From: Pseudoclavibacter sp. RFBB5
GTDB taxonomy: Bacteria; Actinomycetota; Actinomycetes; Actinomycetales; Microbacteriaceae
DNA length: 64,000 nt
NCBI RefSeq assembly: GCF_002931555.1
Contig: NZ_PSTZ01000005.1
Span: forward strand, 186,001 to 250,000
Direction: 5' to 3'
Shown: positions 9,384 to 43,189 of the stretch, in pieces
How positions within the stretch are numbered: the stretch's first letter is position 1
Layout: each line of letters starts with the position of its first letter
Program-made: the position numbers and the translations under genes
The notes under the pieces: generated by a model
Database searches by the model: none
Seen by the model: only the letters and a program-made list of their open reading frames with translations
Told to the model about the DNA's origin: nothing

Positions 9384-9526
9384 CGTTGACGCCTGGCGAT
9401 TCATCAGGAGAATCTCGCCCCCCGAGGGTGAGTACGCTTGGACGGCGCCACGCCCCCGTACGTGGCATGAGCATCCGGCAACGGATGCACCCCGGCAGTC
9501 ACAGGTTTCAGCACGAAGGAGCAACG

Positions 9527-10189: not shown

Positions 10190-10250
10190 GGCCCGTCGCC
10201 ATGGACGTCGCCTCCCGAGTCGCCTCCAGCGGTCGCGCCGGGGCGACCGA

Positions 10251-10859: not shown

Positions 10860-10991
10860 GGAAGCCACCCTCAGCGACGGCCCGTGCCGCGCTTGCTCGC
10901 CTGACAGCATGTGGCGCCTCGAACCTCTCCAGTCGACGGGGGGGTCGTGGGTCCCACTCGAGCGCACACTGACACTGCGAGTCTCGGAAAC

Positions 10992-12338
10992 CTAGCGCCT
11001 CGTGTCGCTGGGCGCGTTCGAGCTGACCGCGGCCCGGTGCGCGGTCCCGTGGCGATTCCAAGCACGAGCTGCAGCTCCTGTGTCCCGACTGATCCCAGTT
11101 CCCAGTACCATTCCGATCGCGATCGCGACGATCGAGCCGATGGTCTGCATAAGCGTCCCTGCAGCACCTGCCGTCCCAGAAGCGGCCTCACTCAGACCGA
11201 TGAAGCCGAGCGCGCCCGGCACGAGCATCCAATACGCGCACGTCAGCATGACGGCGGGCGGAGGCGCCGTCCTGAGGTGCGAAGCCAGGTAGATGGCGGG
11301 AACCGCGACGAGCGCGCCGATCATGCCGGAAAGTTCCGTACCGAGCAGCGTGTGCCCGAGCAGCTGTGCCGCGTAGGCCAGGGCCAGCGCGAACACGATC
11401 CACACCATCGACCGCTTCGGCGCGACCTCAGAGAAGTAGTAGCCCACACCGACGAGCAGGATTCCAACCCACGGCGCCCACGCCCCGAGGCGCTCGCTTG
11501 AGGTGTTCTCGGTGAGCGACGCTCCCGTCACAGTGATGCCGACGTACACGCCGAATGCCAGCAGGCCGAGACGCGCGAACCCATAGACGAGCCGGCTCGC
11601 TCCAGCCATGATCTGCCCGTTCGTCAACTCGACAGCCGCGATCGTCAACGTGAGTCCAGGTAGCAGGCTAACGAGGGCGGGCGCTACGAGCAGCAGCACG
11701 TTCCCCTCGGTGACGCTCTGGCTCGCGAATGACACCGCGACCGTCGCCACGAACGCGGTGAGGACCGGGAGAACGAGCGACAGGGTGCGCGCCTTCGACC
11801 CGATCATGAGGATGAGGCCCACCACCAGACCGAGGGCGGCGTAGATCGGCACGGCAGTGGGGGTCGGGTTCATGACCATCCCGAACCCGAGTGTGAGGAG
11901 CACCTGCCCGAGCAGCGAGAGGAGGAAGCCGAAGCGCGGCTTCGAGCGCGTGATGCGCTCCACCTCGCTCACCACACGCGCCGGCTCAAGCTGGTCGCTC
12001 GCGGCCCGCTGCACGAGCTCCTCGATGGAGCCGGCCTGGTCGAGGCGCAGTGGCTCTCCGGTCGCCGGGAACACCGCCGCCTTCTCGGTCTTCGGGTCCT
12101 CGATGATGATCAGCGTCGGAAGCACGCACACGCGAAGATCCGGCCGCCCATACGCGCGGGCCAGTCCCAGCAGGGTCACCTCGACCTCGTTCGTGGCCTG
12201 CGACGCCTCAAGCAGTGCGGGCCCGAGCGCCCCGAACATCGCTCTCAGGTCGATGTCGCTCGAGGCGGCATCATCGTCGGCGCCGGTGGGTTCGATGGCT
12301 GCCAGCAGTCGCTGCACGCGTGTCTGGCGGAGATTCAT
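10992..12338 (-). CDS. thrE: ThrE-type threonine/serine exporter
   Basis: 448-residue full-length ThrE. The N-terminal soluble DUF1212-type domain (about residues 25-150, with the VCVLPTLIIIED strand) is fused to about ten transmembrane helices covering both ThrE membrane halves. Known members export L-threonine and L-serine using the proton gradient. It lies at the left edge of the stress/export block and is divergent from the AI-2E-family gene. A candidate -10 box and a GGGTGAA element lie upstream (see 12417-12497). The polar C-terminal tail of about 30 residues is of no known use. Confidence 0.9.
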   Translation of the reverse strand: MNLRQTRVQRLLAAIEPTGADDDAASSDIDLRAMFGALGPALLEASQATNEVEVTLLGLARAYGRPDLRVCVLPTLIIIEDPKTEKAAVFPATGEPLRLDQAGSIEELVQRAASDQLEPARVVSEVERITRSKPRFGFLLSLLGQVLLTLGFGMVMNPTPTAVPIYAALGLVVGLILMIGSKARTLSLVLPVLTAFVATVAVSFASQSVTEGNVLLLVAPALVSLLPGLTLTIAAVELTNGQIMAGASRLVYGFARLGLLAFGVYVGITVTGASLTENTSSERLGAWAPWVGILLVGVGYYFSEVAPKRSMVWIVFALALAYAAQLLGHTLLGTELSGMIGALVAVPAIYLASHLRTAPPPAVMLTCAYWMLVPGALGFIGLSEAASGTAGAAGTLMQTIGSIVAIAIGMVLGTGISRDTGAAARAWNRHGTAHRAAVSSNAPSDTRR

Positions 12339-12416
12339 GCGCTCGATTCACAATCCAGGCGGAGGGGCGTCGCCTCTGATTCGCGGACATTGGTGCGTTT
12401 CTGCACGTCACTCACG

Positions 12417-12497
12417 ATCCTAGGTCCGCCAAGTACGGAAACGGGAGGCTTACCTGCGGGTGAAAACCGGGAGGGCGGCAGGTTAGTCCGCGGGTGA
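12417..12497 (-). promoter_or_regulatory. Putative thrE promoter with GGGTGA boxes
   Basis: Minus-strand TAGGAT (12417-12422, in the context CCTAGGATC) is a likely -10 box about 79 bases before thrE. A CGGGTGAA element sits at 12457-12464 and a second CGGGTGA at 12491-12497, 34 bases further. The same CCTAGGATC plus GGGTGAA arrangement precedes oleate hydratase. No clear -35 hexamer was seen, which suits an activator-dependent promoter. Confidence 0.45.
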
Positions 12498-12614
12498 TCT
12501 TCTGCATGTCCTCTGCGCGGAATTCGAGGTTGCAGCGTCTCCATGCGGAAGTGTTGATGCCCACGTGGTTGTCCCCGAAGAATGCGGAGTGTATCCGCCG
12601 AGAGGTTCCTCTTC

Positions 12615-13685
12615 ATGCCCGAAGATCGCGATCTTGCCCCCGGCCTGTTCCGACGAAACCCCGTCATGTGGGGATTCTCTGTGGCCATCGGCTTGCTGCT
12701 CGCCGCGCTGCTCGCCACGACCGTCGTTCAGCTGCAGTCGGTGCTCCTCTCGGTGTTCATCGCCTTCTTCGTCACCCTGGGTCTTGATCCGCTCATCCGC
12801 TTGCTGCAGCGCTGGGGCCTGAAGCGCGGCATGGCGATCATCACCGTGATCATCGCCGTTGTCCTGCTCGTCGCGGGGCTGGTGTGGATCGTCGTCCCCA
12901 TCCTCGTCAACCAGGTCACTTCGCTAGCGACGAGCGTGCCCAAGGAGATCGCCCGCCTGAACAACGAGGGGTGGTTCGACACGATCAACACCGCGACGAA
13001 CGGCGCGGCAACCAACGCCCTCGACTGGGCGCAGAAGACGGCGACGGACCCGAAAACCTGGGCGACGGTCGGCGGGGGCGCGCTGAAGGTTGGCTCGAGC
13101 GTCGTCAACGGTGTCAGCACCGGCCTCTTCGTCTTCATTCTCACGCTGAACTTCATCGCGACGCTCGGCAATATCAAGAAGGCCGGCTACTCGCTCGTCA
13201 ACGCCTCCGTGCGGCCGCGATTCGAGGAGTACGCCGAGCGCATCATGGCCTCGGTCGGTTCCTACCTCAATGGCATGGTCGTGCTCGCGTTCATCAACGC
13301 GGTCTTCAGCGGCCTGCTGCTCTGGATCGTCGGCACTCCCTACGCGTTCATCGTCGCCGTGATCTGCTTCTTCATCACGCTCATCCCGCTCATCGGAACG
13401 ATCATCACGACGGTCTTCATGACCGTCATCGCCATCTTCACCTCGCCGGTCGCCGCGCTTATCGTGCTCATCGCGATGCTCGTCTACATGCAGGTCGAGG
13501 CCTACATCCTCACCCCGAAGGTCATGTCGAAGGCCGTGCAGATTCCCGGCTCCCTCGTGCTCATCGCGGCGCTCGCCGGCGGCACCCTGCTGGGCCTTGT
13601 GGGAGCGCTCGTCGCGATCCCCCTTGCCGCTGGCGTCGTGCTGCTGGTGCGGGAGCTCGTCATCCCGAAAGCTGCCCGCGGGTAG
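12615..13685 (+). CDS. AI-2E family transporter (PerM/YdiK-like membrane protein)
   Basis: 356-residue polytopic membrane protein of the AI-2E exporter superfamily (TqsA/PerM/YdiK). Two N-terminal helix pairs and a soluble region of about 90 residues (from IVVPILVNQ to the DPKTW segment) are followed by the family core with the NGMVVLAFINAVFSG segment and QVEAYILTPKVMSK near the end. Family members export signalling molecules or act as sodium/proton antiporters. The ATG at 12615 was preferred over one 11 codons upstream because GAGAGG precedes it. It is convergent with the FUSC-like gene (24 bases apart). Confidence 0.88.
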   Translation: MPEDRDLAPGLFRRNPVMWGFSVAIGLLLAALLATTVVQLQSVLLSVFIAFFVTLGLDPLIRLLQRWGLKRGMAIITVIIAVVLLVAGLVWIVVPILVNQVTSLATSVPKEIARLNNEGWFDTINTATNGAATNALDWAQKTATDPKTWATVGGGALKVGSSVVNGVSTGLFVFILTLNFIATLGNIKKAGYSLVNASVRPRFEEYAERIMASVGSYLNGMVVLAFINAVFSGLLLWIVGTPYAFIVAVICFFITLIPLIGTIITTVFMTVIAIFTSPVAALIVLIAMLVYMQVEAYILTPKVMSKAVQIPGSLVLIAALAGGTLLGLVGALVAIPLAAGVVLLVRELVIPKAARG

Positions 13686-13709
13686 CGAAGAAGCAAGAGC
13701 CGGAAGCGC

Positions 13710-14678
13710 CTAGCGATCCACGGCGGGGCGTCGCAGACACGCAACCGCGAGGCTTCCTACGAGGGCGATGACCGTGGCGAAGACGACGGACTCGAGGCGG
13801 TACAGGCCGAGTGCGAAGGCGGAGTGCTCTGAAGCCGTCGTGAGCAGGATGGCGGGTGTGAGGAAGAGGACGAACAGCGCGTAGTTTCCGGCGTTGATGT
13901 AGGCCACGCAGAGCACGATGAAGATGGCGGCGAGCACCAGCGGGATCGGTGCTGGCAGCAGCGACACCATCAGTGCGAGAGCGACGCCAGCGACGGAGCC
14001 GAGGATGCGCGACCAGCCGCGCTGCGACTGCTGATCTGCGCTGACCGCGAGGATGACGCTGAAGGACAGCAGCGTCCACTCTCGGTAGGGGAAGTCCAGC
14101 AGCTCGGCGAGGTAGACGATCAGGAACGATCCGATCGCGGTGACTGCTGCGTAGCTGATTCGGTCGGACAGCGGGACATCGGCTGCATCCGGCTGCTTCC
14201 TGGATTTTGTGAGCGCCGCGAAGGCAACGATGACGGCTGCGCCGATCGCGGACCCCAGCATCGCCTGCCAGAGCTCGGCCCCCGATTGGGAGAGCGACGC
14301 GAACGCGAGGAGGTTCACGGGGGACCTGGTCAGGAAGGACGCCTCGCCGATGGTGACGAAGGCCTGCACGATGGAGACGAGGACAAGTGCTGCCAGCGTC
14401 GCCCAGAGCCCGAAACCGCCGACGGCGAACCCGAGTGCTGCGACGGTCAGCGACCACATGACGGAGAAGAGGCGCGTGCGCCAGCTGCCCGCGCGGACGA
14501 CGCTGAGGAGGAACAGGAGGGTCAGGTAGCCGGATGTGGCCGTGTTCGGGCCGATCAGCAGTTGGCTCAGTCCGAGGATCGCTGCGGCGACGGCGACCAG
14601 TGCGACGGCGATCAGCAGCTGCTTCGGGGAGATCGCGGCGCTGAGCTGCTTGTCGTTCAGCCGAGGGTTGTGCTCCAC
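13710..14678 (-). CDS. FUSC-like (aromatic acid exporter type) membrane protein
   Basis: 322-residue membrane protein with two sets of about five or six helices separated by a short polar linker near residue 160 (TKSRKQPDAADVP). This resembles the fusaric-acid-resistance/ArAE fold but lacks the large cytosolic domain. In the second set the segment after DFPYREWTLLSFSVIL matches the conserved YWxxLT-like region of FUSC proteins. Likely an exporter of organic acids or amphipathic toxins. GTG start at 14678 after AGAGAGAAG. A dyad GGGTCA-N9-TGACCC lies 26 bases upstream. Family assignment is moderate. Confidence 0.65.
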   Translation of the reverse strand: MEHNPRLNDKQLSAAISPKQLLIAVALVAVAAAILGLSQLLIGPNTATSGYLTLLFLLSVVRAGSWRTRLFSVMWSLTVAALGFAVGGFGLWATLAALVLVSIVQAFVTIGEASFLTRSPVNLLAFASLSQSGAELWQAMLGSAIGAAVIVAFAALTKSRKQPDAADVPLSDRISYAAVTAIGSFLIVYLAELLDFPYREWTLLSFSVILAVSADQQSQRGWSRILGSVAGVALALMVSLLPAPIPLVLAAIFIVLCVAYINAGNYALFVLFLTPAILLTTASEHSAFALGLYRLESVVFATVIALVGSLAVACLRRPAVDR

Positions 14679-14703
14679 GTCGAGGACTTCTCTCTCAAGG
14701 TCT

Positions 14704-14724
14704 GGGTCAGCGGATTCTTGACCC
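14704..14724. promoter_or_regulatory. Dyad GGGTCA-N9-TGACCC before the FUSC-like gene
   Basis: Perfect 6-base inverted repeat spanning 21 bases. Its arms and total length resemble the GGGTGAA-N7-TTCACCC dyad near the LuxR gene (24093-24113); both fit GGGT(C/G)A...TT(C/G)ACCC over 21 bases. A candidate operator for the same regulator. Confidence 0.5.
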
Positions 14725-14736
14725 GTTGAGTGAGCG

Positions 14737-14768
14737 AGCGGCGGCCCCTCGGAAGAGGGGCCGCCGCT
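14737..14768 (-). terminator. Terminator after the Ntn hydrolase gene
   Basis: Perfect 14-base stem (14737-14750 with 14755-14768, AGCGGCGGCCCCTC paired with its complement) around a GGAA loop, 9 bases past the hydrolase stop. It has no U-run, as is frequent in high-GC genomes. It separates the hydrolase and FUSC transcription units. Confidence 0.8.
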
Positions 14769-14777
14769 GCGCTGGTG

Positions 14778-15857
14778 CTACTTCTTGCTGCCGACGTACC
14801 CCTGCACGAGCGTCTTCAGTGCGGTGAACTCGTCCTTCTTGTTGGCGACGAATTCCAGTGCCTTGACGCCTGTGGCGAGCACCTCGGTGACTTCCGGCCC
14901 GACATCGGTGAACTTGTGGCTCACGTTGCCTGCAAGCCCGCCTTCGAGGGCGAGCTGGCTGATGAGGTCGAGCTTGAGCACCTTGCTGCCTTCGGCGAAG
15001 CTCATGTCATCCAGGTCGATCCAGACGATGTTGGGGCGGGTCGTGGATTCGAACACGTACCGCTTGTTCGTCAGGTCGAGCACAACCTGCCAGATCGTCT
15101 GCGAGGCGTCTGGCTTGCCGGGTTCCGGCGTGCGGAACGGCTGTGCGGCGTTGCGGATGATGCTGAACATCGCGGCGATCGCGTCGAGTTGTGTCTTCGG
15201 CTGGACCTGGTGCTCCACGTACCAGGATGCGCGCGCGAAGCGGTCGCTCGCGAGCGTCGAACCCGGCAGGGGCTTGTCGCCGCCCAGTCCGTCGTACTGT
15301 TTGACGAGTTCGAGCTGCTTGTCGAAGGTCGGCGAGTTCGTCATGACCTTGTAGTCGCGGCTGTGGTGGACCGTTGGGGTGCCGTCGGTGTATTCGATGA
15401 TCGCTGAGTCGCCCGTGGCATCGTTGATCGCGAGGTGCAGCGTCGGCACGAGGTGGCCGGTGGGATCGAAGAGCTGTGCGATCTGCACACCGGTCGACTC
15501 GGTCCATTCGACGGCTTCAGCGACGGTCGCGAAGTTGTCGAGGTAGTACTGCAGCCAGATGGCCTGGCTGAGCTGGGTTGCAGAGGCCTCTGGCTTCCCG
15601 TAGTTCGACTCTGCGAGCCACAAGATGTGGCCGGCGAACCCTTCCTCGTTCATCCCGTCGGTCGCGATGAGATCGAACGCGGTGGCGACGATGCTCCCGT
15701 ACCTGGCTGTCCAGGTGAGGTCACCTGCCACGCCGTCGGTGCGTTCGATGCCCCTTGGGTACTTCCAGATGTTCGTGAGGAGGTCCATGTGGAAGTCCAT
15801 GTTCCTGCCGACGATGACCGCTCCGTTTGCGTCAGGCCAGACAACTCGAGTGCACAT
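14778..15857 (-). CDS. Choloylglycine-hydrolase-family Ntn hydrolase (linear amide C-N hydrolase)
   Basis: 359-residue Ntn hydrolase. After removal of Met1 the N-terminal Cys2 is the nucleophile; Arg18, Asp21, Asn70 (DGMNEEG), Asn174 (TNSPTFD) and Arg206 fit the catalytic set of bile salt hydrolases and penicillin V acylases. Such enzymes cleave bile-acid conjugates, penicillin V or N-acyl homoserine lactones; the substrate is not decidable here. No signal peptide, hence probably cytosolic. It lies directly downstream of oleate hydratase (51 bases), so both may form one unit acting on amphipathic host- or neighbour-derived compounds. AAAGGA lies rather far (about 12 bases) before the ATG. Confidence 0.88.
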   Translation of the reverse strand: MCTRVVWPDANGAVIVGRNMDFHMDLLTNIWKYPRGIERTDGVAGDLTWTARYGSIVATAFDLIATDGMNEEGFAGHILWLAESNYGKPEASATQLSQAIWLQYYLDNFATVAEAVEWTESTGVQIAQLFDPTGHLVPTLHLAINDATGDSAIIEYTDGTPTVHHSRDYKVMTNSPTFDKQLELVKQYDGLGGDKPLPGSTLASDRFARASWYVEHQVQPKTQLDAIAAMFSIIRNAAQPFRTPEPGKPDASQTIWQVVLDLTNKRYVFESTTRPNIVWIDLDDMSFAEGSKVLKLDLISQLALEGGLAGNVSHKFTDVGPEVTEVLATGVKALEFVANKKDEFTALKTLVQGYVGSKK

Positions 15858-15908
15858 GCGTATGCGCCGTCCTTTCGTGATGGTGAATGTGTTTGCGCTG
15901 GTGGTGCG

Positions 15909-17717
15909 TCAGGCGATGGCGTCGTCGCTGCGGCTGCGTACGCCGGTGTCCTGTGTGGCGGGGATGAGGCTGAAGTCCGTAAGGAGTTGTCCGAGTTCTG
16001 TCTTGTCGAATCGGTTCACGAGGTGCCGCTTGACGAAGCTCGGCCCTGGGACGTCGAGTTGCTCGCCGTCGCGGAGGATGTTCGTCGAGTGCAAGAGGAA
16101 ACGGAGGTCGTAGGTGGAGTTGAAGACCTCGGGCACGCCGCGTTCGACGCCCAGGAGCTCGTAGGTCGCTTCCATGGCGGTGCGCACGGAGTATTCCGTC
16201 GTGAAGATGCAGTCGCGCGTGGTCTCGGCGAACTGGCCGATGAACGCGAAGTTGACGCTGCCCTGCGGGACGACTGCCGGCCGGTCACCTGCCTTGCGTG
16301 GCATGAAGAACGAGGTGACGTACGGCATCATGACGGGCACGGTCTTGACTCCGGTGGACGCGAGTTCCGCGATCTCGTCGACGGGCACGCCCATGTGGAA
16401 GAGCCATTCCTGCGTGATCTCCTCGCCGGTGCACTCCTGCATACTCTTCTTCACGAAGGCGCCGGGAGTGTCGACGAAGAGCCCATAGATCCACACGACG
16501 ATCTCGGTGTCCTTCTGCGCCTTGAAGTGGGGCTGACGGTTGACAGTCCAGCTCATGAGCCACGGCGAGTCTCTGACCGTGACGATGCCGCCTGTGACGA
16601 CTTTGCCCGAGAACGGGTCGCGCTCGGCGATACGTTCGATGTACTTGGGGACCCGCTCGTCCAGCGTGGTGGCGGTGGCCGATTCCCACTTGGACTTCTG
16701 GATGTCGCCGCAGAAGACCTCTGGTCGACCGAACGCTTCATCCTTCGCTGCAATGCTGCGCCACAGGTCCCACGCGGGTGCGGGCCCGGTGTCGAGGCGG
16801 GCCGCCGTGTGGTGGTCGCCCTGGTCGGAGTTCTCGGTCAGGGATCCGATCGTGATGTAGGCGAGGTCGTTGGCGGTGAGGTCGACGCCGCCCTCCTGGC
16901 CGTCTCGGACCCAGTCGATGCGAGTCGCCTGCTTGGTGTCGCCCTCGAGGTCGAAGTGCACGTCGGTGACCTTGGTGCCGTACTGGAAGGTGACGCCTCG
17001 CTCGAGGAGCCACTTCTGCATGGGGAGCACAAACGACTCGTACTGGTTGTACTTGGTGAACTTGAGGGCCGACATGTCGGGGAAGCCGCCGAGCTGGTGC
17101 ACGAATCGGTGCAGGTAGAGCTTCATCTCGAGGGCCGAGTGCCACTCCTCGAACGCGAACATCGTGCGCCAGTACAGCCAGAAGTTGCTGCTGAGGAAGT
17201 CGGGGCTGAAGACCTCGTCGATGCGCTTGTCTTCCATCTGCTCGCGTGTTGCGAGGAAGACGCCAACGATTTCCTTCTGCGCCTTCTCCGACAGGCCGAA
17301 CTTGAAGTTCGTGCCTGCATCCTGCCCCTGATTCTCGGTGACGCGGCGCTTCGAGGAGTTCGGGTCGTCGAGGTTCAGCCAGTAGAACTCATCGAGGACG
17401 CTGGCGTCTTCGATCTCGAGCGATGGGACGGTGCGCAGGAGATCCCAGAGGCATTCCATGTGGTCTTCGAGTTCACGCCCGCCGCGGATGACGAACCCCT
17501 TCTCGGGGTACTTGATGCCGTCGAGCGCGCCGCCCGCGATGTGCATCTCCTCGAGGATGGTGATGCGGTCGCCGCTCATCTGCCCGTCGCGGATGAGGAA
17601 GATCGCAGCTGCGAGGCTGCCGAGCCCCGCTCCGACGAGCCATGCGCTTTTCTTGTCGACGCCCTGGGGCTTTCGCGGGCGTGCGAACGCTTCATAGTTA
17701 CCGCTGCTGTAATGCAT
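15909..17717 (-). CDS. ohyA: Oleate hydratase (myosin-cross-reactive antigen family)
   Basis: 602-residue FAD-dependent fatty acid hydratase adding water to the cis-9 double bond of oleate or palmitoleate. The dinucleotide fold GAGLGSLAAAIFLIRDG is at residues 29-45. RGGRELEDHMECLWDLL follows, with Glu82 at the position of the catalytic Glu of the Staphylococcus enzyme, and the family block NFWLYWRTMFAFEEWHSA is present. The ATG at 17717 was chosen over a GTG eight codons upstream because the protein then begins MHYSSGNYEAFARPRKP like typical members. Hydration detoxifies membrane-disrupting unsaturated fatty acids. It is probably transcribed with the Ntn hydrolase. Confidence 0.96.
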   Translation of the reverse strand: MHYSSGNYEAFARPRKPQGVDKKSAWLVGAGLGSLAAAIFLIRDGQMSGDRITILEEMHIAGGALDGIKYPEKGFVIRGGRELEDHMECLWDLLRTVPSLEIEDASVLDEFYWLNLDDPNSSKRRVTENQGQDAGTNFKFGLSEKAQKEIVGVFLATREQMEDKRIDEVFSPDFLSSNFWLYWRTMFAFEEWHSALEMKLYLHRFVHQLGGFPDMSALKFTKYNQYESFVLPMQKWLLERGVTFQYGTKVTDVHFDLEGDTKQATRIDWVRDGQEGGVDLTANDLAYITIGSLTENSDQGDHHTAARLDTGPAPAWDLWRSIAAKDEAFGRPEVFCGDIQKSKWESATATTLDERVPKYIERIAERDPFSGKVVTGGIVTVRDSPWLMSWTVNRQPHFKAQKDTEIVVWIYGLFVDTPGAFVKKSMQECTGEEITQEWLFHMGVPVDEIAELASTGVKTVPVMMPYVTSFFMPRKAGDRPAVVPQGSVNFAFIGQFAETTRDCIFTTEYSVRTAMEATYELLGVERGVPEVFNSTYDLRFLLHSTNILRDGEQLDVPGPSFVKRHLVNRFDKTELGQLLTDFSLIPATQDTGVRSRSDDAIA

Positions 17718-17789
17718 TGTCAACTCATTTCTCGTCGGCACTGACCGCTAACCGGGCAAGTTGTCCGAGCTCATTTCCGACGTCATTTG

Positions 17790-17841
17790 ATCCTAGGGAG
17801 AAGTCTTTTTACACTCGCCAGTAGGTGGTTTTATTTCACCC
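17790..17841 (-). promoter_or_regulatory. Putative ohyA promoter with GGGTGAA box
   Basis: Minus-strand TAGGAT (17790-17795, in CCTAGGATC) lies about 73 bases before ohyA. A GGGTGAA element (17835-17841) lies 39 bases upstream of it, a layout almost the same as at thrE (35 bases, same -10 context). A further TCACCC at 17860-17865 lies inside the end of the DMT gene. Confidence 0.45.
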
Positions 17842-17846
17842 GACCC

Positions 17847-18764
17847 CTAACCCGCTTCATCACCCTTTCTCGCGGAACTCGTGTCGGGTGTTGATGGTGC
17901 GTTTTCGGCCCGGGCCAGCTTGAGGACTCCCAGCGCGGCGACTGCTCCCGCGGCCAGGAAGGCGAGGACAGCCCACGGGGGCGCGTTCGTGGCCTCGCGG
18001 AGGATCACGATGCCCAGGATGACCGCGATCGTGGGGTCTATGACCGTGAGCCCCGCCACGACGACCTCTGGCGGATTCTCGAGGTGGGCGCGCTGCACGA
18101 AGATGACGGAGAGTCCGCCTGCGATGCCGATTCCGAGAATGCTGACGATCGTGAGCACGTCGGTGGAATTAAAGGGCATTTCGTGTGCTTTGAGAATGGC
18201 CTGCACTCGAAGGATGACTGTCTTACCCAAGGTTGCGACGAACGCCGAGTAGATTCCTCCGAGGAGAACCCAGAGAAGTGGCGGAGTTGGTCGTCCCTTT
18301 CCGAGGATCTCGATGGTGCCTGTCACGAGGAGCACGACTGCGAGGGTGACGAGCACGGCGATCAGCTGCGTGTCTTCGATGGGCTCTTGCGTGCTGACCA
18401 TGGCGGCGACGACCACGAAGCCGCCGACGCCGATCACGCACAGCAGAATCGAACGGAGCACGGCAGCGGAGGGGCGAGTCTTGTGCACGAGGCTGGTGAT
18501 GACGACGGAGAAGACGAGAGCCGCAACGCCGATCGGCTGCACGACGATGAGGGGCGCGAAGGCGAGACTCGCGACCTGCACGACCATGGCGGCGACGAGC
18601 GCCACGCTGCCGAAGAGCCAGACGCGGTTACGCAACATGTGCAAGGCCGCGTCCTTGCGGCCGATCGACTTGGTCTCCGCGAGGTGTACTCCGCGCGACT
18701 GCAGGAGGTTGCCACCCGCCATGAACGCGGCAGAGGTGAGGGCGAGGGCTACGCCGATGAGCAC
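17847..18764 (-). CDS. DMT-superfamily membrane transporter
   Basis: 305-residue protein with about nine or ten transmembrane helices in two repeats. The start MLIGVALALTSAAFMAGGNLLQSRG resembles NIPA/EamA-type drug-metabolite transporters, and the second repeat ends with the conserved VAGLTVIDPTIAVILGIVILRE pattern. Likely exports a small metabolite or ions; the substrate is unknown. GTG start, 3 bases after the stop of the YrhK-like gene, so the two are one operon. The C-terminal 20 residues are polar and disordered. Confidence 0.78.
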   Translation of the reverse strand: MLIGVALALTSAAFMAGGNLLQSRGVHLAETKSIGRKDAALHMLRNRVWLFGSVALVAAMVVQVASLAFAPLIVVQPIGVAALVFSVVITSLVHKTRPSAAVLRSILLCVIGVGGFVVVAAMVSTQEPIEDTQLIAVLVTLAVVLLVTGTIEILGKGRPTPPLLWVLLGGIYSAFVATLGKTVILRVQAILKAHEMPFNSTDVLTIVSILGIGIAGGLSVIFVQRAHLENPPEVVVAGLTVIDPTIAVILGIVILREATNAPPWAVLAFLAAGAVAALGVLKLARAENAPSTPDTSSARKGDEAG

Positions 18765-18767
18765 GCG

Positions 18768-19472
18768 CTAGCCGTTCTGTGAAGTCGGCGCAGCGGTGCG
18801 CTGCTGGCTGCGGTGGCGTGATGCTGCGCCGGGGAGCACGACGAGGGAGGCGACGAAGAAGCAGATCGCGCCGATAAACGTTCCCCAGGTCGCGAAGTCG
18901 TCATTGACTGTGTTTCCACCCGGGAGGATGAAGGAGCCGATAGCTGAGATGCCGAAGGCGACGCAGCCGACGAAGTTGATGACAACGGACCAGCAGGCGG
19001 GTGAGCTGAGCTTCCACCTGGACCCGGTGTGGGCGAAGGCGATGAAGGCCACGCAGCCGCTGATCAGGAATGCGACGGAACCTCCAGCATCCGGGTTCCA
19101 GACGAGCTTCTCCTGCGCGGTGAGGCTCTTCGCGTGGAGGGCGGCGGTGGTGCTCACGTTGAAGAGGAGGGTGCCGAAGGACTGGGTGGATGCGGTGAGC
19201 CATTCCGCGCGCACCATGCGGCCGGGTGCGTATGGGACGGCGACGGCGACGGCTCCGCTGAGGAACACCTGGATGAGCCCTGCTGCAGTGAAGAACCAGG
19301 CGCCGATGAAGAAGAGGAGGTTGGAGAGCTGGGATCCCATCTGCTCGCTGAGCACGGGGGCGGACCCGGCGGCGAAGAGGGCGGAGCCGATCATGAACAG
19401 CCAGCATTGCTTGACGACTGTCGGCACGAGCAGGGAGCTCGTTCGCGCGAGGGGAAGGGCGGCGCTCGTCAT
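18768..19472 (-). CDS. YrhK-like multi-pass membrane protein
   Basis: 234 residues with about six transmembrane helices. The repeated WLFMIGSALFAAGSAP / SNLLFFIGAWFFTAAGL pattern recalls YrhK-domain proteins, which have no established function. Good CGGAGAA ribosome site before the ATG. It starts after the glutamate decarboxylase terminator and leads directly into the DMT transporter gene. I cannot assign a substrate; a role in GABA/glutamate exchange would be guesswork, although no GadC-type antiporter is present in this block. Confidence 0.55.
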   Translation of the reverse strand: MTSAALPLARTSSLLVPTVVKQCWLFMIGSALFAAGSAPVLSEQMGSQLSNLLFFIGAWFFTAAGLIQVFLSGAVAVAVPYAPGRMVRAEWLTASTQSFGTLLFNVSTTAALHAKSLTAQEKLVWNPDAGGSVAFLISGCVAFIAFAHTGSRWKLSSPACWSVVINFVGCVAFGISAIGSFILPGGNTVNDDFATWGTFIGAICFFVASLVVLPGAASRHRSQQRTAAPTSQNG

Positions 19473-19517
19473 GTCCGATTCTCCGTGGGGTGCGTGGGGG
19501 AGTTGTGGTGCACGGCG

Positions 19518-19546
19518 TCGGGCGGGGACCGGTGATCCCCGCCCGA
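19518..19546 (-). terminator. Terminator after glutamate decarboxylase
   Basis: Perfect 11-base GC-rich stem (19518-19528 with 19536-19546) around a 7-base loop, starting 8 bases after the decarboxylase stop on the minus strand. No U-run. Confidence 0.8.
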
Positions 19547-19553
19547 TGCTCGA

Positions 19554-20960
19554 TCAGTGATGGAAGTGCACGCCGCGGCCTGCTTCGCGGGGCAGGGGCA
19601 CTTCAAGAGAGTCGAGGTACGTGATGTCGTTCTTGATGTCGGCGAGCAGAGAGGAGGCGAGGTCGCGGCTGAGGCCGACCTTCACGACGATGCGCTGCAG
19701 GATGACGTCGCTCATGTCATCTGCCATGGGGTAGGCCGGCACGAGCCAGCCCTTCATTCGCAGGCGGTCGGCGAGGTCGTAGAGGCTCCAGTTCTTCGTG
19801 TGGCCGTCCTTCAGGACCCACGCGAACACGGGGATCGTGTCACCGCGGCTGACGAGCTCGAATGGGCCCATCTTCTCGATCTCCGAGGAGAGGTACGTCG
19901 CGACGTCGATGGAGTTCTGCTGTACGAGGCGGTAGCCCTCGAAGCCGAGGCGGAGGAACTGGTAGTACTGCAGCAGTACCTGCGCGCCTGGTCGGGAGAA
20001 GTTCAGTGCGAGAGTGGGCATGTCACCACCGAGGTAGCTGACGTGGAAGATCATGCTCTCGGGGAGCACTGCCGTGCTGCGCCAGACGACCCAGCCGACT
20101 CCGGGGTAGACGAGGCCGTACTTGTGGCCGGAGGTGCTGATGGAGTTCACGCGGTCGAGCGCGAAGTCCCAGCTCAGCTCGGGCTGGCAGAAGGGGGCGA
20201 CCATTGCGCCGGATGCGCCGTCGACGTGGATCTTCACGTCGAGGCCGGTCGAGGCCTGGATCTCGTCGAGCTTCTTGGCGAGGGCCGCGACGTCGTCGTA
20301 GAGGCCCGTGAAGGTCTGGCCGAGGATAGCGACGACGCCGATGGTGTTCTCGTCGACGTACTTCTCGAGGTCGTGTCCGTCGAGCACGAGGTGGTTGGGG
20401 GAGACGGGCACGTAGCGCGCCTCGATGTCCCAGTAGTTGCAGAACTTCTCCCACACGACCTGCACGGCGGCGGACATGATGAGGTTCGGCTTTTCCGTCG
20501 ACTTGCCTTCGGCGCGGCGCTTCTCCTGCCAGAGGCGCTTGAGCGCCAGGCCGCCGAGCATGCAGGCCTCGGAGGAGCCGATCGTGGAGGTGCCGATGGT
20601 GTCCTTCGCGTCCGGGATGCTCCAGAGGTCTGCGAGCATCCGCCAGCAGCGGTCCTCGATCGCGGCGGTACCCGGGTACTCGTCCTTGTCGATCATGTTT
20701 TTGTCCGCCGCTTCGGCGTAGAGCTTCTTCGCCTCGTCGTCCATCCATGTCGACACGAAGGTCGCGAGGTTGAGTCGGGAATTGCCGTCGAGCATGGCCT
20801 CGTCGTGCACGATCTGGTAGGCCGTCTCCGGGAGGCTCTGGTCTGATGGCAGCTTGAACTTGTCGAAGACCGTCGCCTCACCGGGTCGGACGAAGACGGG
20901 GTTGACGTCGAGATCCGGGTTGACGTTTCGGTGGTGGCCGTTGCTGGTGCTGTTCTCCAT
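19554..20960 (-). CDS. gadB: Glutamate decarboxylase, PLP-dependent
   Basis: 468-residue cytosolic enzyme converting L-glutamate to GABA with consumption of one proton, the core reaction of glutamate-dependent acid resistance. Full-length similarity to the E. coli GadA/B type is evident: TIGSSEACMLGG, HVDGASGAMVAPF (cofactor-stacking region) and SISTSGHKYG with the PLP Lys280, then SYLGGDMPTLALNFSRP. The C-terminus ends HFHH; in E. coli GadB a penultimate His seals the site at neutral pH, so this tail could play the same part. Start at 20960 after AAAGAGAG. It has its own terminator and lies 92 bases after the YhgE-like gene. Confidence 0.97.
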   Translation of the reverse strand: MENSTSNGHHRNVNPDLDVNPVFVRPGEATVFDKFKLPSDQSLPETAYQIVHDEAMLDGNSRLNLATFVSTWMDDEAKKLYAEAADKNMIDKDEYPGTAAIEDRCWRMLADLWSIPDAKDTIGTSTIGSSEACMLGGLALKRLWQEKRRAEGKSTEKPNLIMSAAVQVVWEKFCNYWDIEARYVPVSPNHLVLDGHDLEKYVDENTIGVVAILGQTFTGLYDDVAALAKKLDEIQASTGLDVKIHVDGASGAMVAPFCQPELSWDFALDRVNSISTSGHKYGLVYPGVGWVVWRSTAVLPESMIFHVSYLGGDMPTLALNFSRPGAQVLLQYYQFLRLGFEGYRLVQQNSIDVATYLSSEIEKMGPFELVSRGDTIPVFAWVLKDGHTKNWSLYDLADRLRMKGWLVPAYPMADDMSDVILQRIVVKVGLSRDLASSLLADIKNDITYLDSLEVPLPREAGRGVHFHH

Positions 20961-21052
20961 GGGGCTCTCTTTTCGTGAGTGCAGGGACTTCGAGGAACGA
21001 ATGGGTAGGTCTGGTGGGCTCGAGCTTCCGCGTGGCGGAGGGGTGTTGGCTG

Positions 21053-23008
21053 CTAGACCTCGACGGGTGGGTAGAGCCGGTCCATGTTGTACTGCCGGTT
21101 CCTTCTCGCTGCCCAGGTCGAGATGGCGATGAAGGCGACGGTCATGGAGAGGATGACGATGATCGCAGTGAGCAGACGGTCGTCGATGCCGCCGAGGATC
21201 AGCTGTCTCAGTCCGTTGTTCGTGTAGGTCATCGGGTCGATGACGTTGATGTACTGGAAGACGTTGGTGGTCGTCGGGACGGGATAGATACCGCCTGCGG
21301 AGGTCAGCTGGACCATGAGGAAGGCGAGCGTGAACACACGTCCGACTGCCGGGCCGAAGACTGCGTTGAACATCTGGATCATGGCCATGAACATCATCAC
21401 CATCAGCAGGAGGAAGCCGTACGTTCCCCAGGTGTGCTCGGGATGCAGCCCGATGCCGAAGTAGATGACCAGGTACAGGATGGTCGCCTGCAGGAATCCG
21501 ACGAACACGGTCGGTACGTACGAGGCGAGGATCACGCGGAAGGAACCGAGGCCCTGGGCGAGTGGACGCGCCTGCAGCGGGGTGAAGAGCATCCACGCGA
21601 TGATGCCGCCGACGAAGAGCGCGAGGCCGAGGAAGAACGGTGCGAAGCCGTAGCCGAAGGTCTTGGCCTCGTTGTTGATCGTCTCCTTCAGCTCCACCGG
21701 CTGGGCGAGTGCCTGCACGAAGTTCGACTGCTGGTCTTCGTCCCAGTCGGGGAAGAGGTTGAGTGCGGTGTCGGCGGCGTCGGCGAGCTCGATCGTGCCG
21801 GCCGCGAGCTGGTCCGTGCCCGACGACAGCTGTGTGGCGCCCGCGGAGAGCTCACCGAGGCCGGTGTCCAGCTGATCGGCTCCGGAGCGCAGCTGCTCCG
21901 CGTCTGAGGAGGCGGTCGCGAGGTCGCGCTGCACGGCGCCGTCCTCGATGGCCGTCATGATGACGTTGACGCGGCTCTCCGGGTCGTTGAATTCGCCGGC
22001 GAGCAGGTCCATGTCAGCGTGCAGGGCATCGAAGACCGTGACGAACTCCTCCGTCAGCCTGGAGTCCTTGATGTGCGTGTGCACGCTCTCGAGGCGGGCG
22101 GCGATGGACTGCTCGACTGGATTGTCGCTTGCCGCGAGCTCATTCATGATGGTCGTGAGCTCGCTGTCTGCTCGCGCTTGGGCTGCTGCCGCTTCGTTGA
22201 GTGCTGTCGCGATGGTGTCGGTGCTCGTGACGACGTCGGACGACAGCTCGCGCAGCTCGGCACCTGTGATCCCGGATGCCGAGATAGCGCTGTCGACGCG
22301 GGTGACCGCTCCCTGGACGGCCTCATCGAGCGTGTCAATGGCGCCTGCCAGCGTGGCCGATCCTTCCTTCGCGGTCACCAGGTTGTCCGCGATCTCCTTC
22401 GCACCGCTGTTCGCCGTCTGCATGCCGGAGTTGAGCTCCTCGACGCTGCTGACGGCTTCCTTGAGCGTGGGAATCTCGGCTCTGACTGCTGCCAGTGCCT
22501 GGTCGAACATCTGCGCTGAGACCTGCTGGTTGACCATGACGATGACCTCTTCGGCCGCGTCCTGGCCGATGATCGTCGAGAGGTAGTTATTGGAGTCGTT
22601 GTACGTGAACTCCAGCTCTGCGGAGCGGGACTCGTTGGTGGTCACGGATGCCACGGCTTCGCTGAAGTCGGCGGGCACCGTGATCGTGAAGTAGTACTTG
22701 CCGTGGGCGAGACCGTCGACGCCGTCCTGCTCGCTGGTCTCGGTGAGGTCTAACTGCTTGGAGTCGATGAGGCCTTGGACGACCGAGTCACCGGCGGTGA
22801 GTGGCTCACCCTCTACGGTGGCGCCCTGGTCGAGGTTGATGATCGCGACCGGGATCTTGTCGACGTTGCCGAACGGGTTCCAGAACGCCCACAGGTAGAG
22901 AGCTCCGTAGAGCAGCGGCATGAGGATGACGACGGCGAGCGCGAGTCGTGGCATGCGGCCGCGGTAGTAGCGCTTGAAGTCGCTCCCTGGGGAGAACGCG
23001 GCGATCAT
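21053..23008 (-). CDS. YhgE/Pip-family membrane protein (ABC-2-like exporter)
   Basis: 651 residues: one N-terminal transmembrane helix, a large extracellular region of about 430 residues, then five C-terminal helices as in ABC-2-type permeases. The extracellular part contains the YhgE/Pip module and a run of heptad-like segments (SGADQLDTGL, SAGATQLSSG, TDQLAAGT, near residues 420-460) typical of this family. Relatives include phage infection protein and EsaA-like proteins; substrates are mostly unknown. Its ATG overlaps the stop of the ATPase gene by four bases (ATGA), so the two are translationally coupled partners. Confidence 0.88.
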   Translation of the reverse strand: MIAAFSPGSDFKRYYRGRMPRLALAVVILMPLLYGALYLWAFWNPFGNVDKIPVAIINLDQGATVEGEPLTAGDSVVQGLIDSKQLDLTETSEQDGVDGLAHGKYYFTITVPADFSEAVASVTTNESRSAELEFTYNDSNNYLSTIIGQDAAEEVIVMVNQQVSAQMFDQALAAVRAEIPTLKEAVSSVEELNSGMQTANSGAKEIADNLVTAKEGSATLAGAIDTLDEAVQGAVTRVDSAISASGITGAELRELSSDVVTSTDTIATALNEAAAAQARADSELTTIMNELAASDNPVEQSIAARLESVHTHIKDSRLTEEFVTVFDALHADMDLLAGEFNDPESRVNVIMTAIEDGAVQRDLATASSDAEQLRSGADQLDTGLGELSAGATQLSSGTDQLAAGTIELADAADTALNLFPDWDEDQQSNFVQALAQPVELKETINNEAKTFGYGFAPFFLGLALFVGGIIAWMLFTPLQARPLAQGLGSFRVILASYVPTVFVGFLQATILYLVIYFGIGLHPEHTWGTYGFLLLMVMMFMAMIQMFNAVFGPAVGRVFTLAFLMVQLTSAGGIYPVPTTTNVFQYINVIDPMTYTNNGLRQLILGGIDDRLLTAIIVILSMTVAFIAISTWAARRNRQYNMDRLYPPVEV

Positions 23009-23775
23009 CGTTCGTCTGCCTCTCGTTCGAGCACGGCGAACTCCTTGTCGGTGAGGTTGTCGACGACGATCTGCTCGCGGATTCCGGCGTCCGGAGCGAC
23101 GCCGTTGACGTCGGCGGTGATGACCGTCTGCTCTTTGCCCAGTGTGATGAGGCGGCCGAGGAGCTTGTGGGCGCTCTCGATGCTCGACAGCTTGTCGATG
23201 CCGCCGACGACGAGCACTGGGGGTTTGCGGATGTTGGCTACGGCGATGCGAAGAAGCGCGCAGGTGAGCTCTGGGAGCTCCTCGACCATGGCTCCCATGC
23301 TGGGGAGCGAGTATTCGCCGAAGACCGGTGCGCAGATTCGCTCCAGGTCGGCCACCTTCGACTGGCGGACCCAGCGTGCGCCCGGCGCGGCCCATCTGAT
23401 CTGCTCGGTGATGATGTCGTGCACGCGGATTGTCTGGCCGATGCCGTCGACTTCGTCGATGTTCGCGAGGGCTGCTTGTTTGAAGAGGTGGTGCGCGTCG
23501 TTGTCGCGCCCGAACGACTCGAGGCGGCCGCTTGTGGGCTTCATGCGGCCCGCGAGCGTCAGGAGCAACGCCGTTCGTCCGCGTCCGCCGGCCCCGACCA
23601 GTACCGTGACGCCGCCAGATCCGATGGTGAGATCCACGGGCCCGTAGATGTGCCCCCAGGACGCCTTGACGCCCATGCCCTCGGCGACGAGGATCGGCTC
23701 ACCGGCGGCGGCGAGGTTGACCTCACGGGTTTTCGGCTGCGGCTGTTCGCCGAATAGCTGCTGTAGGTCGCTCAC
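23005..23775 (-). CDS. Degenerate ABC-type ATP-binding protein, YhgE partner
   Basis: 256 residues from a GTG preceded by AGGAG. The fold follows an ABC nucleotide-binding domain: strand VTVLVGAGGRGRTALLLTLAGRMKPTSG is a Walker A whose invariant Lys is Arg67, and PPVLVVGGIDK is a Walker B whose catalytic Glu is Lys195. The LSGGQ signature (around 164-170, VEELPEL) and the H-loop His are not recognisable. ATP hydrolysis by the usual mechanism therefore looks doubtful; it may bind nucleotide as a regulatory or structural subunit of the YhgE-type exporter it is coupled to. First gene of the leftward unit that faces the LuxR gene. Confidence 0.8.
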   Translation of the reverse strand: MSDLQQLFGEQPQPKTREVNLAAAGEPILVAEGMGVKASWGHIYGPVDLTIGSGGVTVLVGAGGRGRTALLLTLAGRMKPTSGRLESFGRDNDAHHLFKQAALANIDEVDGIGQTIRVHDIITEQIRWAAPGARWVRQSKVADLERICAPVFGEYSLPSMGAMVEELPELTCALLRIAVANIRKPPVLVVGGIDKLSSIESAHKLLGRLITLGKEQTVITADVNGVAPDAGIREQIVVDNLTDKEFAVLEREADER

Positions 23776-24334
23776 GCGATGCTCTCCTGACTTATGTTCC
23801 AGCGCATTGCGCGGTCGGAGACCGTTCTCCACGATTCGGCTGTCTATTCCCTCGTGAATGCGCCTGTTTGAGTCATCGAAATGATCAGTCCGCGGAGAGG
23901 GGTTCGTTGCCGATCGATCGTTTTCGGGGTCATGTTCGTCACCATATCTTCGGCGTGGGAACGCTGGTTCGACCTTTCGGGGATTTCATCCGCGGCGTCG
24001 TCACCCGCATCACCCGCACTATCACCCGGCCGATTCCTCGTCAAGCCACGCCCGAAAAGCCGGATGTTGGCGTATGTGGCTGGATCGCGTTAGGGTGAAG
24101 TCGAGTTTCACCCCGGAACTCACCCTCTGTTGCCCGGCAGTCTCGTTCCAGTCCAGCGATGAAGTTGGTTTGAGGAGAACGTTGTCGGCGAGCGCGAAAG
24201 GGCGCTCTCACTCGACCCCCAGAGTGAGCGTCGTCCTGCGTCTCCAATTGGTGCGCGCGCTCCGGTTCGTGATTCGTGGGCGCTTTCATAAGCGTCGGTA
24301 GAGACGTTAGTGAGTGCCTAGAGAATGGTGATCG
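23776..24334. promoter_or_regulatory. Divergent control region with GGGTGA/TCACCC operator array
   Basis: 559 bases without a gene, less GC-rich than its neighbours. TCACCCG occurs at 24001, 24010 and 24022; a perfect dyad GGGTGAA-N7-TTCACCC spans 24093-24113; and TCACCCT follows at 24120. That is six copies of one 6-mer in 126 bases, which base composition cannot easily explain. The array lies between the divergent ABC/YhgE unit and the LuxR-type gene. Clear -35/-10 pairs were not found in either direction. No open frame here resembles a protein. Confidence 0.6.
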
Positions 24335-25888
24335 ATGAATGCCGCAATTGCCTCGGAATCACTCGACGCTCTCAATGATGCGCTCGCGTCAGGGGATCCG
24401 AGAAGGATCGCACAAGCGGCAATGGCCGGGATCTGGCCGCTCTTCGACAATCACTATCTTGCGCTCACCGCGGCAATCGAGCAGATCCCAAATTCCTTGC
24501 TGGAAGATTACCCGGTTCTTTGGGTGATGCACCGGGTGAATCCGGTGCTCACGCATCGCCGCCCGATGTTCAAGCCGAAGGTCAGTCCAGAATCCCTCCG
24601 GGCGATGTCTACGGACGAGATCGACATGCTCACGCTGGCGCAGATGATCGCCTACCGGTACAGCGGTGATGTGACGGCAGCGCAGGCGTATGGCACGCGT
24701 CTCTCCGACCGCATCCGTTCGAGAGGAACCCGGTTCCGTGAGCGAGCGGATGGGCCCTTGTGGTTCTACCACCAGCAGATCGGCTCGACGATGCTCGCCG
24801 CTGGCGAGACCGGTGCCGCGCTCACTGAGCTCGCGACCTCCCACCAGATCGGCCAGATCGAGAATCGCCCGGACGTGCAGCGCCTTGCCCTGTCGCGGAT
24901 CGCCCTTGCACACGCCAAGCGCGGGTCGTTCGAGGAGGCGGAGCGCATCCTGGCGGAGCTCCCGCGCCTCACCGAATCGACCTCCCCATACTGCGAACCC
25001 AGCTACGTCGCGGAGCACGCGGCCGCGGCGCTCATGGGCGCGGAGCGCATGGTGGATGACATTGATGCGAGGCTGGCGCGCCTCGAGCCATTCGACAGCT
25101 TCCAAATGACCTGGCCGTATGCGCTGCTCGCGCGGACTCGGTCGCTGATCACGCGTCATCGCCCGGAGGAGGCTCTCGAGTACGTGCAGCTGTCGCGGGA
25201 CGCCCATCCCGAACAACACGGGTCCCTGGCCATCGATGTTATGAATGCAGCGTCCATCGATGCGCTCTGGGCGCTCGGCGCGAAGAAACAGGCGCGCAGC
25301 GCGGCACTGAACGGGGAGCGGAAAGGGTTTCTCGAGGCCAGTGCAGCCGTGCGCCTGGCGCTGGCCGACGATCGACTGGACTTCGCGGACGCGCATCTCG
25401 GGCGCATGGCTGAGCACCGCACGCTCTCCCCGGTTGAGCACACTGAACGGATACTGCTCACCGCGTGGTTCTCCGTCGCGAGGACGGGATCGCTCGACTC
25501 TGTCTCGGCACAGCGCGTAGTCCACATTGCACAGCGCCGCAACGCTCGGAGGATGCTGAGCCAGATTCCGCAGCAGGTACTCGCGCACGTGAGGTCAGAA
25601 CTCGACGAGCACGCGAAGCTGTCGTTCGATGCGACGATTGCTGGCCTCAACCACATCCGCGTCGAGACGCGGCCGAAGCTGACCCAGGGCGAGCTGCGTG
25701 TCCTGCACACCCTCCGACGTCGGCAGACGACTGCCGAGATCGCCGCGCAGCTGCACGTTTCGCCGAACACGATCAAGTCTCAGCTCAGCTCCATCTACAA
25801 GAAGCTGTCCTGCTCAACTCGGGCCGAGGCGGTGCAGGCTGCGATCGGCTTCCAACTGCTCACCGTCGACGACACCGGACGTGATTGA
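24335..25888 (+). CDS. LuxR-type regulator with TPR-like sensor region
   Basis: 517 residues. The C-terminal LuxR/NarL-type helix-turn-helix (449-505, LTQGELRVLHTLRRRQTTAEIAAQLHVSPNTIKSQLSSIYKKL) carries the usual GEL/NTIKxxLxxIYxKL pattern. The 440-residue N-terminal part is all-helical and TPR/MalT-like but has no P-loop, so it is a shortened STAND-type regulator without the NTPase. It is the only regulator in the 11-26 kb block and is divergent from the ABC/YhgE unit, with an operator-like array between them; it is the natural candidate to control the block. Codon use is visibly less GC-biased than in flanking loci. Confidence 0.85.
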   Translation: MNAAIASESLDALNDALASGDPRRIAQAAMAGIWPLFDNHYLALTAAIEQIPNSLLEDYPVLWVMHRVNPVLTHRRPMFKPKVSPESLRAMSTDEIDMLTLAQMIAYRYSGDVTAAQAYGTRLSDRIRSRGTRFRERADGPLWFYHQQIGSTMLAAGETGAALTELATSHQIGQIENRPDVQRLALSRIALAHAKRGSFEEAERILAELPRLTESTSPYCEPSYVAEHAAAALMGAERMVDDIDARLARLEPFDSFQMTWPYALLARTRSLITRHRPEEALEYVQLSRDAHPEQHGSLAIDVMNAASIDALWALGAKKQARSAALNGERKGFLEASAAVRLALADDRLDFADAHLGRMAEHRTLSPVEHTERILLTAWFSVARTGSLDSVSAQRVVHIAQRRNARRMLSQIPQQVLAHVRSELDEHAKLSFDATIAGLNHIRVETRPKLTQGELRVLHTLRRRQTTAEIAAQLHVSPNTIKSQLSSIYKKLSCSTRAEAVQAAIGFQLLTVDDTGRD

Positions 25889-25958
25889 GGGGCGCCGTCA
25901 GACTGACGACAGCGCGCAACGGGCTTCCGGCCGGCGATTGCTCGTTGCCGTGCCCAGG

Positions 25959-26954: not shown

Positions 26955-27082
26955 GGGAAGCCTCTCTTGGGCCGCGGCTCGGGGGTGCCGCGACGACCGA
27001 CGGATCACTGTACGCGGCGCCGGGTGGGAGGTCCCGGCGCTTGACAAGCCGCGCCTCGCGCCCCGTCCGGCGGCGAGTGCTA

Positions 27083-43126: not shown

Positions 43127-43189
43127 CCCTGCCCCGCAGAACCTCCAGTGCAGGCGCATGCCTGTCAACCTCGAAAGGAAACAGAACGA

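Follow-up and report, generated by a model that had tools for sequence, protein, structure and literature searches.

Glutamate decarboxylase, choloylglycine-family amidases and oleate hydratase are usually discussed in gut bacteria, from which the trio of choloylglycine-family hydrolase, oleate hydratase (OhyA) and GadB is familiar. Acid resistance through GadB and GadC is described in Escherichia coli and Lactococcus, and in the E. coli GadB a C-terminal His serves as pH latch. The choloylglycine hydrolase family includes bile-salt hydrolases, penicillin V acylases and acyl-homoserine lactone (AHL) acylases, whereas the oleate hydratase genes known to us stand alone. The Listeria sigma-B regulon is a sigma-factor regulon and is not known as a mobile island. 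Here we describe a locus of the actinobacterium Pseudoclavibacter sp. RFBB5 (Microbacteriaceae) at which genes of these kinds stand together with a YhgE/Pip-family gene and a LuxR-type regulator. It lies in a stretch of 64,000 nucleotides (contig NZ_PSTZ01000005.1, positions 186,001 to 250,000; hereafter the window), for which an original prediction made from the sequence alone had proposed a LuxR-linked stress island at positions 10992-25888.

By comparison with congeners, the locus is one discrete inserted block of 15.1 kb that is missing at the same site elsewhere in the genus. The congener G234 (locus L174) aligns to positions 8089-10861 (93.9%) and 25953-28567 (94.9%) of the window, and 4 bp separate the two flanks. 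In G299 and G300 the flanking genes are likewise neighbours, with 24 and 316 bp remaining between the aligned parts; the stretch from G300 contains no match to a methyltransferase. The borders given by the empty site, 10862 and 25952, agree with those originally predicted to within about 130 bp. When 10 genomes of the genus were searched with both flank genes, the island was present here in two (the window and G073) and the site was empty in three; in the other five, neither flank gene matched at E 1e-40. The whole G234 genome lacks the amidase, OhyA and island-type YhgE, while G299 and G300 lie outside our 299-genome sample (below) and may thus carry the island elsewhere. In strain AY1H1 (L101), most of the island sits among different flanking genes.

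Across 11-26 kb, the GC content of 1-kb segments is 0.61-0.67, lower than the 0.67-0.74 typical of most of the remaining window, with values of 0.65-0.67 also outside the island, at 5-8 kb and 55-57 kb. Between the window and Pseudoclavibacter sp. AY1F1 (L100, genome G073), identity at fourfold sites ranges from 0.65 to 0.92 for genes of the island and from 0.48 to 0.72 for those flanking it; the central island genes are more alike than the flanks, which does not apply to the LuxR end. The island-free G234 is the nearer relative in the flanks (fourfold sites 0.82-0.89). Gain of the island by exchange and its loss in G234 would both fit these values, and we lean towards exchange. The window contains no tRNA, and a Pfam scan of 20 frames revealed no integrase; the junctions, judged by eye only, show no clear repeat.

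The genes of the block recur together in other genomes. Gene order in AY1F1 matches that of the window, and the encoded proteins share 87-99% identity. Among 299 genomes of the family Microbacteriaceae, island-type YhgE (at least 59% identity) is present in 8, the next match falling to 31%, and the island-type choloylglycine-family amidase (CBAH; at least 66% identity) in 11, the next match having 43%. In all 8 genomes with this YhgE, GadB adjoins it and the CBAH ortholog is present (in G210 on a separate contig). OhyA (E <=1e-60) occurs in 6 of the 11 genomes with a CBAH ortholog and in 11 of the 288 others, a co-occurrence far above chance (Fisher p 5e-6, uncorrected for relatedness). These distributions show that the island genes are co-inherited.

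A wider survey, in which the CBAH alignment was scanned against one genome per species, yielded 52 loci from named genomes. GadB is encoded at 27 of them (25 distinct genes, two contigs having yielded two loci each) and the YrhK-like protein at 25. Most of the island is found in Pseudoclavibacter, Leucobacter, Mycetocola, Microbacterium and Agromyces, and part of it in Dietzia, where six loci have the arrangement GadB-YrhK-CBAH. Because the genes recur, reshuffled, in these genera, the objection that they might not co-occur in relatives falls away. The fullest relatives are those of Microbacterium oxydans Moxy_1, Microbacterium sp. MYb45 and Agromyces cerinus, with LuxR, ThrE and AI-2E genes; these Microbacterium and Agromyces islands add an amidohydrolase and in some cases a Na+/H+ exchanger, a Sap/GAP protein and a DUF998-like protein (below cut-off), and the two Microbacterium islands contain a second CBAH. 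From sequence comparison, a core of pseudo-ATPase, YhgE, GadB, YrhK-like protein, amidase and DMT transporter recurs in several genera, and OhyA, ThrE, FUSC and AI-2E form variable cargo. The cluster has an OhyA gene close by in five cases, namely the window, AY1F1, AY1H1, Leucobacter luti (L124) and G017 (L046), and relatives of the AI-2E protein (at least 38% identity) were seen only at LuxR-bearing amidase loci. A part in AI-2E signalling was considered and dropped, PF01594 being a broad family. At six Leucobacter and Propionibacterium loci (L102, L118, L119, L123, L124, L150) we also observed an alpha/beta hydrolase and a protein of about 400 amino acids, which is Pfam-less in L124, the sole member scanned.

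The island's LuxR-type protein probably controls the island through GGGTGA boxes, which would act as its operators. Relatives of this protein in other islands share 43-88% identity with it, and a LuxR-type gene is present in six islands, that of the window and five named ones (in L101 only the first 107 residues are within the stretch examined). Boxes before the main operon of LuxR-bearing islands number six in the window, seven in L100, three each in L101 and L141, and two each in L139 and L147, where they are opposed and not tandem; patterns shared by the window and L100 are to be read in light of their close relationship. At loci without LuxR, defined by the lack of a tblastn match at 1e-8 within the stretch examined rather than the whole genome, L044 has one box and L125, L127, L150 and L046 have none. 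The 1,399 bp between island genes hold nine copies of GGGTGA (Poisson p ~1e-5 against the window's own rate), which makes it their commonest hexamer (runner-up, seven copies), and the six boxes between the LuxR and ATPase-like genes include the densest 200-bp cluster of the 64 kb (next best, two). Tandem copies with spacers of 5-6 occur three times in the window against 0.04 expected, all at 24010-24539 and the third within luxR. With spacers of 3-6 there are 12 in the whole genome (reversed control, 0), four of them at the LuxR/ATPase promoter; no coherent regulon emerged among the eight outside the island.

Boxes also precede other island genes. They are found before CBAH in L109 (three), L112 (three) and L113 (two) and before ThrE/AI-2E in the window and L100 (two each). 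The OhyA box pair is common to the window and L101 (7964, 7988), one box of each pair lying within the last part of the DMT gene that precedes OhyA. A sigma-70 promoter scan was uninformative (one site against 1.5 expected). One of the tandem GGGTGA sites outside the island, at position 2912 of L182 (G000:C2:42412), directly follows a frame of 867 codons that has a GerE match of LuxR type, a hint that the box might be general to such regulators.

The GadB of the window ends in His-His, and a C-terminal His is present in 26 of the 27 related GadB frames listed, near-duplicate loci included. No protein of the 299 genomes exceeds the GadC cut-off of TIGR00910 (673.5 bits; best score in the window's own genome, 31 bits), while the E. 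coli and L. lactis controls match; this is a stringent model, under which the 21 GadC-like matches of the search all score 213-284 bits. Directly downstream of gadB, 60 Microbacteriaceae GadB loci have a GadC-like antiporter in 14 cases, a YrhK-like gene in 14 and both in none. A strict mutual exclusion of the two was rejected, since two of the 60 loci have a GadC-like gene downstream and YrhK upstream, and only the downstream place is exclusive. The YrhK-like protein scores 22.3 bits against PF14145, below the gathering cut-off of 26.1, and is therefore called YrhK-like only. The motif WNPDAGGS is invariant in an alignment of 17 members, and the structure predicted from these sequences is mostly helical (mean pLDDT 76), its fold matches, weighed for a succinate-acetate permease fold, implying no family membership. 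That this protein substitutes for GadC is conceivable, if doubtful. In Bacillus subtilis, yrhK belongs to the sigV lysozyme-stress operon and is described as of unknown function in the available text (PMC8287880).

In the ATPase-like protein encoded beside YhgE, the Walker A Lys is replaced by Arg, the signature is lost and the Walker B Asp-Glu has become Gly-Gly. None of 12 aligned sequences (the window and 11 relatives) retains the functional ABC-ATPase motif set of Walker A Lys, signature and Walker B acidic pair, and all 12 have GxGGRGR[TQ] and VVGG. Other Microbacteriaceae YhgE/Pip genes (L154-L173, 20 of 34 non-orthologous YhgE matches) are immediately preceded, at 13 of 20 loci, by a degenerate gene with weak resemblance to ABC ATPases (E 1.6e-6 to 3e-3); one further match in this list resembles an ordinary ATPase. 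A search of the Protein Data Bank (PDB) with the YhgE sequence gave chance-level matches only. The YhgE value in a butanol study compares 2-butanol with 1-butanol and is, as far as its available text goes, uninformative on stress versus control (PMC11728337). OhyA has E90 and Y209, which align with E82 and Y201 of the Staphylococcus aureus oleate hydratase, residues that we take to be catalytic. The AY1F1 copy (G073:C13 182177-183993) is interrupted, falling into two pieces with one in-frame stop, and may be a pseudogene or an assembly error.

The amidase belongs to the choloylglycine hydrolase superfamily by its PF02275 score of 161.9 bits (cut-off 20.4) and its nucleophile position, Cys2. 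This residue immediately follows the initiator Met, without a hydrophobic leader or TM-like stretch, and C2, R18, D21 and N174 are invariant in eight aligned sequences. We dropped an identity as typical bile-salt hydrolase, and the bile-salt link originally suggested is not supported: the enzyme scores 81.3 bits against NCBIfam NF038245 (cut-off 350) and also misses the penicillin V amidase cut-off. Its nearest solved relative is 5j9r_A (E 8.4e-84), presumably a Shewanella loihica enzyme. AHL-like compounds or N-acyl amino acids are our preferred candidate substrates over bile salts. For two CGH-like enzymes from S. loihica, the available text names AHLs as substrates and reports no action on either penicillin V or bile salts (PMC8066178). 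A choloylglycine-family gene of Staphylococcus epidermidis was among 17 genes found by both CRISPRi approaches in acidic medium, according to the accessible part of the report (PMC9765180); this independently supports an acid link at the level of the family. We also observed relatives (67-69% identity) as plasmid cargo in Rahnella and Klebsiella (L186, L187); on the Klebsiella plasmid viewed, the amidase lies between lac and D-galactonate genes. Outside actinobacteria, in Vreelandella (Gammaproteobacteria; L131, L133, L134), the amidase is convergent with gadB.

We give an even chance to the proposal that the block is a horizontally moving, LuxR-controlled actinobacterial stress island for acid and N-acyl-amide/fatty-acid stress, and a role in acid plus amphiphile stress appears to us similarly balanced. 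Under such stress, GadB would turn cytoplasmic glutamate into GABA, consuming a proton, and the YrhK-like protein or another island transporter would carry glutamate/GABA instead of GadC. The cytoplasmic amidase would cleave N-acylated amphiphiles, AHL-like rather than bile salts, and OhyA would hydrate unsaturated fatty acids, freed or incoming. The FUSC, ThrE, DMT and AI-2E proteins could export what is formed, and YhgE, together with an ATPase-like partner that would not hydrolyse ATP, might support the envelope rather than form an ATP-driven pump. More tentatively, the locus may belong to a class of mobile acid/amphiphile islands under LuxR control that has yet to be described, with a YrhK-like carrier for GadC, a dead ABC-ATPase (a general YhgE/Pip partner in this family) for an energy-giving subunit, and GGGTGA tandem operators.

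Several observations weigh against a coordinated stress island. Within the stretches examined, some of which end at contig ends, the amidase occurs without GadB at 25 of the 52 loci, including those of enterics and Leifsonia. The annotations of the two plasmids viewed, one from Klebsiella and one from Rahnella, likewise show no GadB in its vicinity; the amidase can thus act alone. OhyA and AI-2E are not always present. Because of this, and because AI-2E is confined to LuxR-bearing amidase loci, one system would here mean core plus variable cargo. The original claim is partly supported: the genes make up a unit that recurs in other genera, and a LuxR-type gene belongs to it in the window and five further islands. 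The box was first spotted in the main promoter and tested afterwards; GGGTGA is frequent in the whole window (61 copies against 35.1 expected from shuffles) and is only fifth by enrichment among hexamers with at least four copies. The contrast in boxes between LuxR-bearing and LuxR-free loci follows genus lines, and L100 has a single opposed box in place of the OhyA pair. In the available text of a study of lauric-acid-treated Methanobrevibacter, a YhgE/Pip-like gene is down, not up (PMC5816558).

The best-surviving alternative, possible though improbable, is an island for processing N-acyl amino acids or AHLs, in which cleavage by the amidase yields a fatty acid, dealt with by OhyA, together with an amino acid or homoserine lactone. 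The amino acid would leave the cell through the ThrE and DMT exporters, GadB would consume glutamate set free in this way, and acid resistance would be secondary. The relation of the amidase to 5j9r_A and the AHL activity in the available text on the S. loihica enzymes (PMC8066178) suit this idea. So do its neighbours: in Corynebacterium sputi and two Gordonia (L132, L140, L142) the gene beside the amidase is ThrE-like (26-28% identity), and in Vreelandella (L131, L133, L134) and one Solirubrobacterales metagenome-assembled genome (L130) it is gadB. However, GadB exceeds the glutamate decarboxylase equivalog cut-off and has the conserved C-terminal His, which points to acid use, and the Na+/H+ exchanger cargo of other islands fits pH better. 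We think it quite improbable that there is no functional unit, only a hot spot or composition-shifted region that gathers unrelated membrane and stress genes. Gene order and orientation do vary, several genes are optional and the scanned frames include no integrase, but the genes co-occur in several genera at different chromosomal sites, as subfamily-specific orthologs with a shared promoter motif. A tolerance island for bile salts and gut fatty acids, suggested by the joint presence of choloylglycine-family hydrolase, OhyA and GadB and by GadB-YrhK-amidase in Candidatus Dietzia intestinigallinarum (L120), is very improbable given how far the amidase falls below the bile-salt hydrolase cut-off.

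Profile matches confirmed all eleven genes originally named (the YrhK-like gene below the Pfam cut-off), and the five or more exporters hold by family name (ThrE, AI-2E, FUSC, DMT, YhgE). Eight genes, from the ATPase-like gene to FUSC, run head to tail on the minus strand (23832 to 13710); the divergent gaps measure 502 bp (LuxR/ATPase-like) and 243 bp (AI-2E/ThrE). The start codons of GadB and YhgE were chosen by us; the long open frames of both extend into upstream genes. Elsewhere in the window, a second copy of a beta-carbonic-anhydrase gene (43175-43849, plus strand) is 90% identical to residues 158-382 of the copy at 9041-10189.

Table 1. Features of the island in the window of Pseudoclavibacter sp. 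RFBB5
Feature	Position	Strand	Match or remark
Inserted island	10862-25952	.	empty at otherwise syntenic site of congener G234
ThrE-family threonine/serine exporter	10992-12338	-	PF06738 121.5 bits
ThrE/AI-2E divergent promoter region	12339-12581	.	two GGGTGA boxes (12458, 12492), both also in L100
AI-2E-family transporter	12582-13685	+	PF01594 177.9 bits
FUSC_2 efflux-like membrane protein	13710-14678	-	PF13515 65.9 bits
Choloylglycine-family Ntn hydrolase (CBAH, amidase)	14778-15857	-	PF02275 161.9 bits
Oleate hydratase OhyA	15909-17741	-	NF010584 872 bits, cut-off 567
GGGTGA box pair, 24 bp apart, 5' of OhyA	17836-17865	-	boxes at 17836 and 17860 (latter within DMT gene end)
DMT/NIPA-type transporter	17847-18764	-	PF05653 33.1 bits; NF038012 50 bits, at cut-off
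YrhK-like membrane protein, next gene 3' of gadB	18768-19472	-	weak Pfam match PF14145
Glutamate decarboxylase GadB, C-terminal His	19554-20960	-	TIGR01788 617.3 bits, cut-off 380.4
YhgE/Pip-family membrane protein	21053-23008	-	TIGR03061 and TIGR03062 above cut-off
Degenerate ABC-ATPase-like partner of YhgE	23005-23832	-	ATPase motifs lost
Main divergent promoter region	23833-24334	.	six GGGTGA boxes: five same direction, one opposed
LuxR-type regulator	24335-25888	+ (divergent)	C-terminal GerE domain PF00196 40.2 bits

The literature searched, which excluded most subscription papers and all bioRxiv preprints, holds no description of this gene combination and no paper that joins choloylglycine hydrolase, glutamate decarboxylase and oleate hydratase, links YrhK with glutamate decarboxylase or Pseudoclavibacter with oleate hydratase, or treats a degenerate ABC transporter with YhgE. 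If our proposal is true, these three enzymes are tied into one transferable unit outside gut bacteria, and the YrhK-like protein and the poorly understood YhgE/Pip proteins gain a candidate function. GGGTGA would provide a ready operator motif for testing the regulon.

In conclusion, each part of the island has a described counterpart. Its GadB is a glutamate decarboxylase equivalog with a C-terminal His, as in the GadB/GadC systems of E. coli and Lactococcus, but the gene that follows gadB encodes a YrhK-like protein, and amidase, YhgE and LuxR are added. The amidase is, like the choloylglycine family, a Cys2 Ntn hydrolase of PF02275, with 5j9r as the closest PDB entry, but misses both the bile-salt hydrolase and the penicillin V amidase cut-offs of NCBIfam. 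OhyA is above its equivalog cut-off with the aligned catalytic residues present, and sits in a multi-gene island. Both YhgE/Pip domains are above cut-off, whereas the co-encoded, conserved ABC-ATPase-like protein lacks the Walker A Lys, signature and Walker B acidic pair. The regulator resembles LuxR/MalT-like proteins in its C-terminal GerE domain, long N-terminal part and tandem G-rich boxes (putative operators), for which the MalT box is the comparison, and differs in that Pfam matched no NTPase domain (no match before residue 448). As in the Listeria sigma-B stress regulon, a glutamate decarboxylase and a choloylglycine hydrolase come together; both change in sigB mutants, lmo2434 and lmo2067 having negative log2 changes in the table available to us (PMC7690807). 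Relative to known acid-resistance gene clusters, the parts are thus of known kinds, and their assembly, recurrence and probable operator are new to us.

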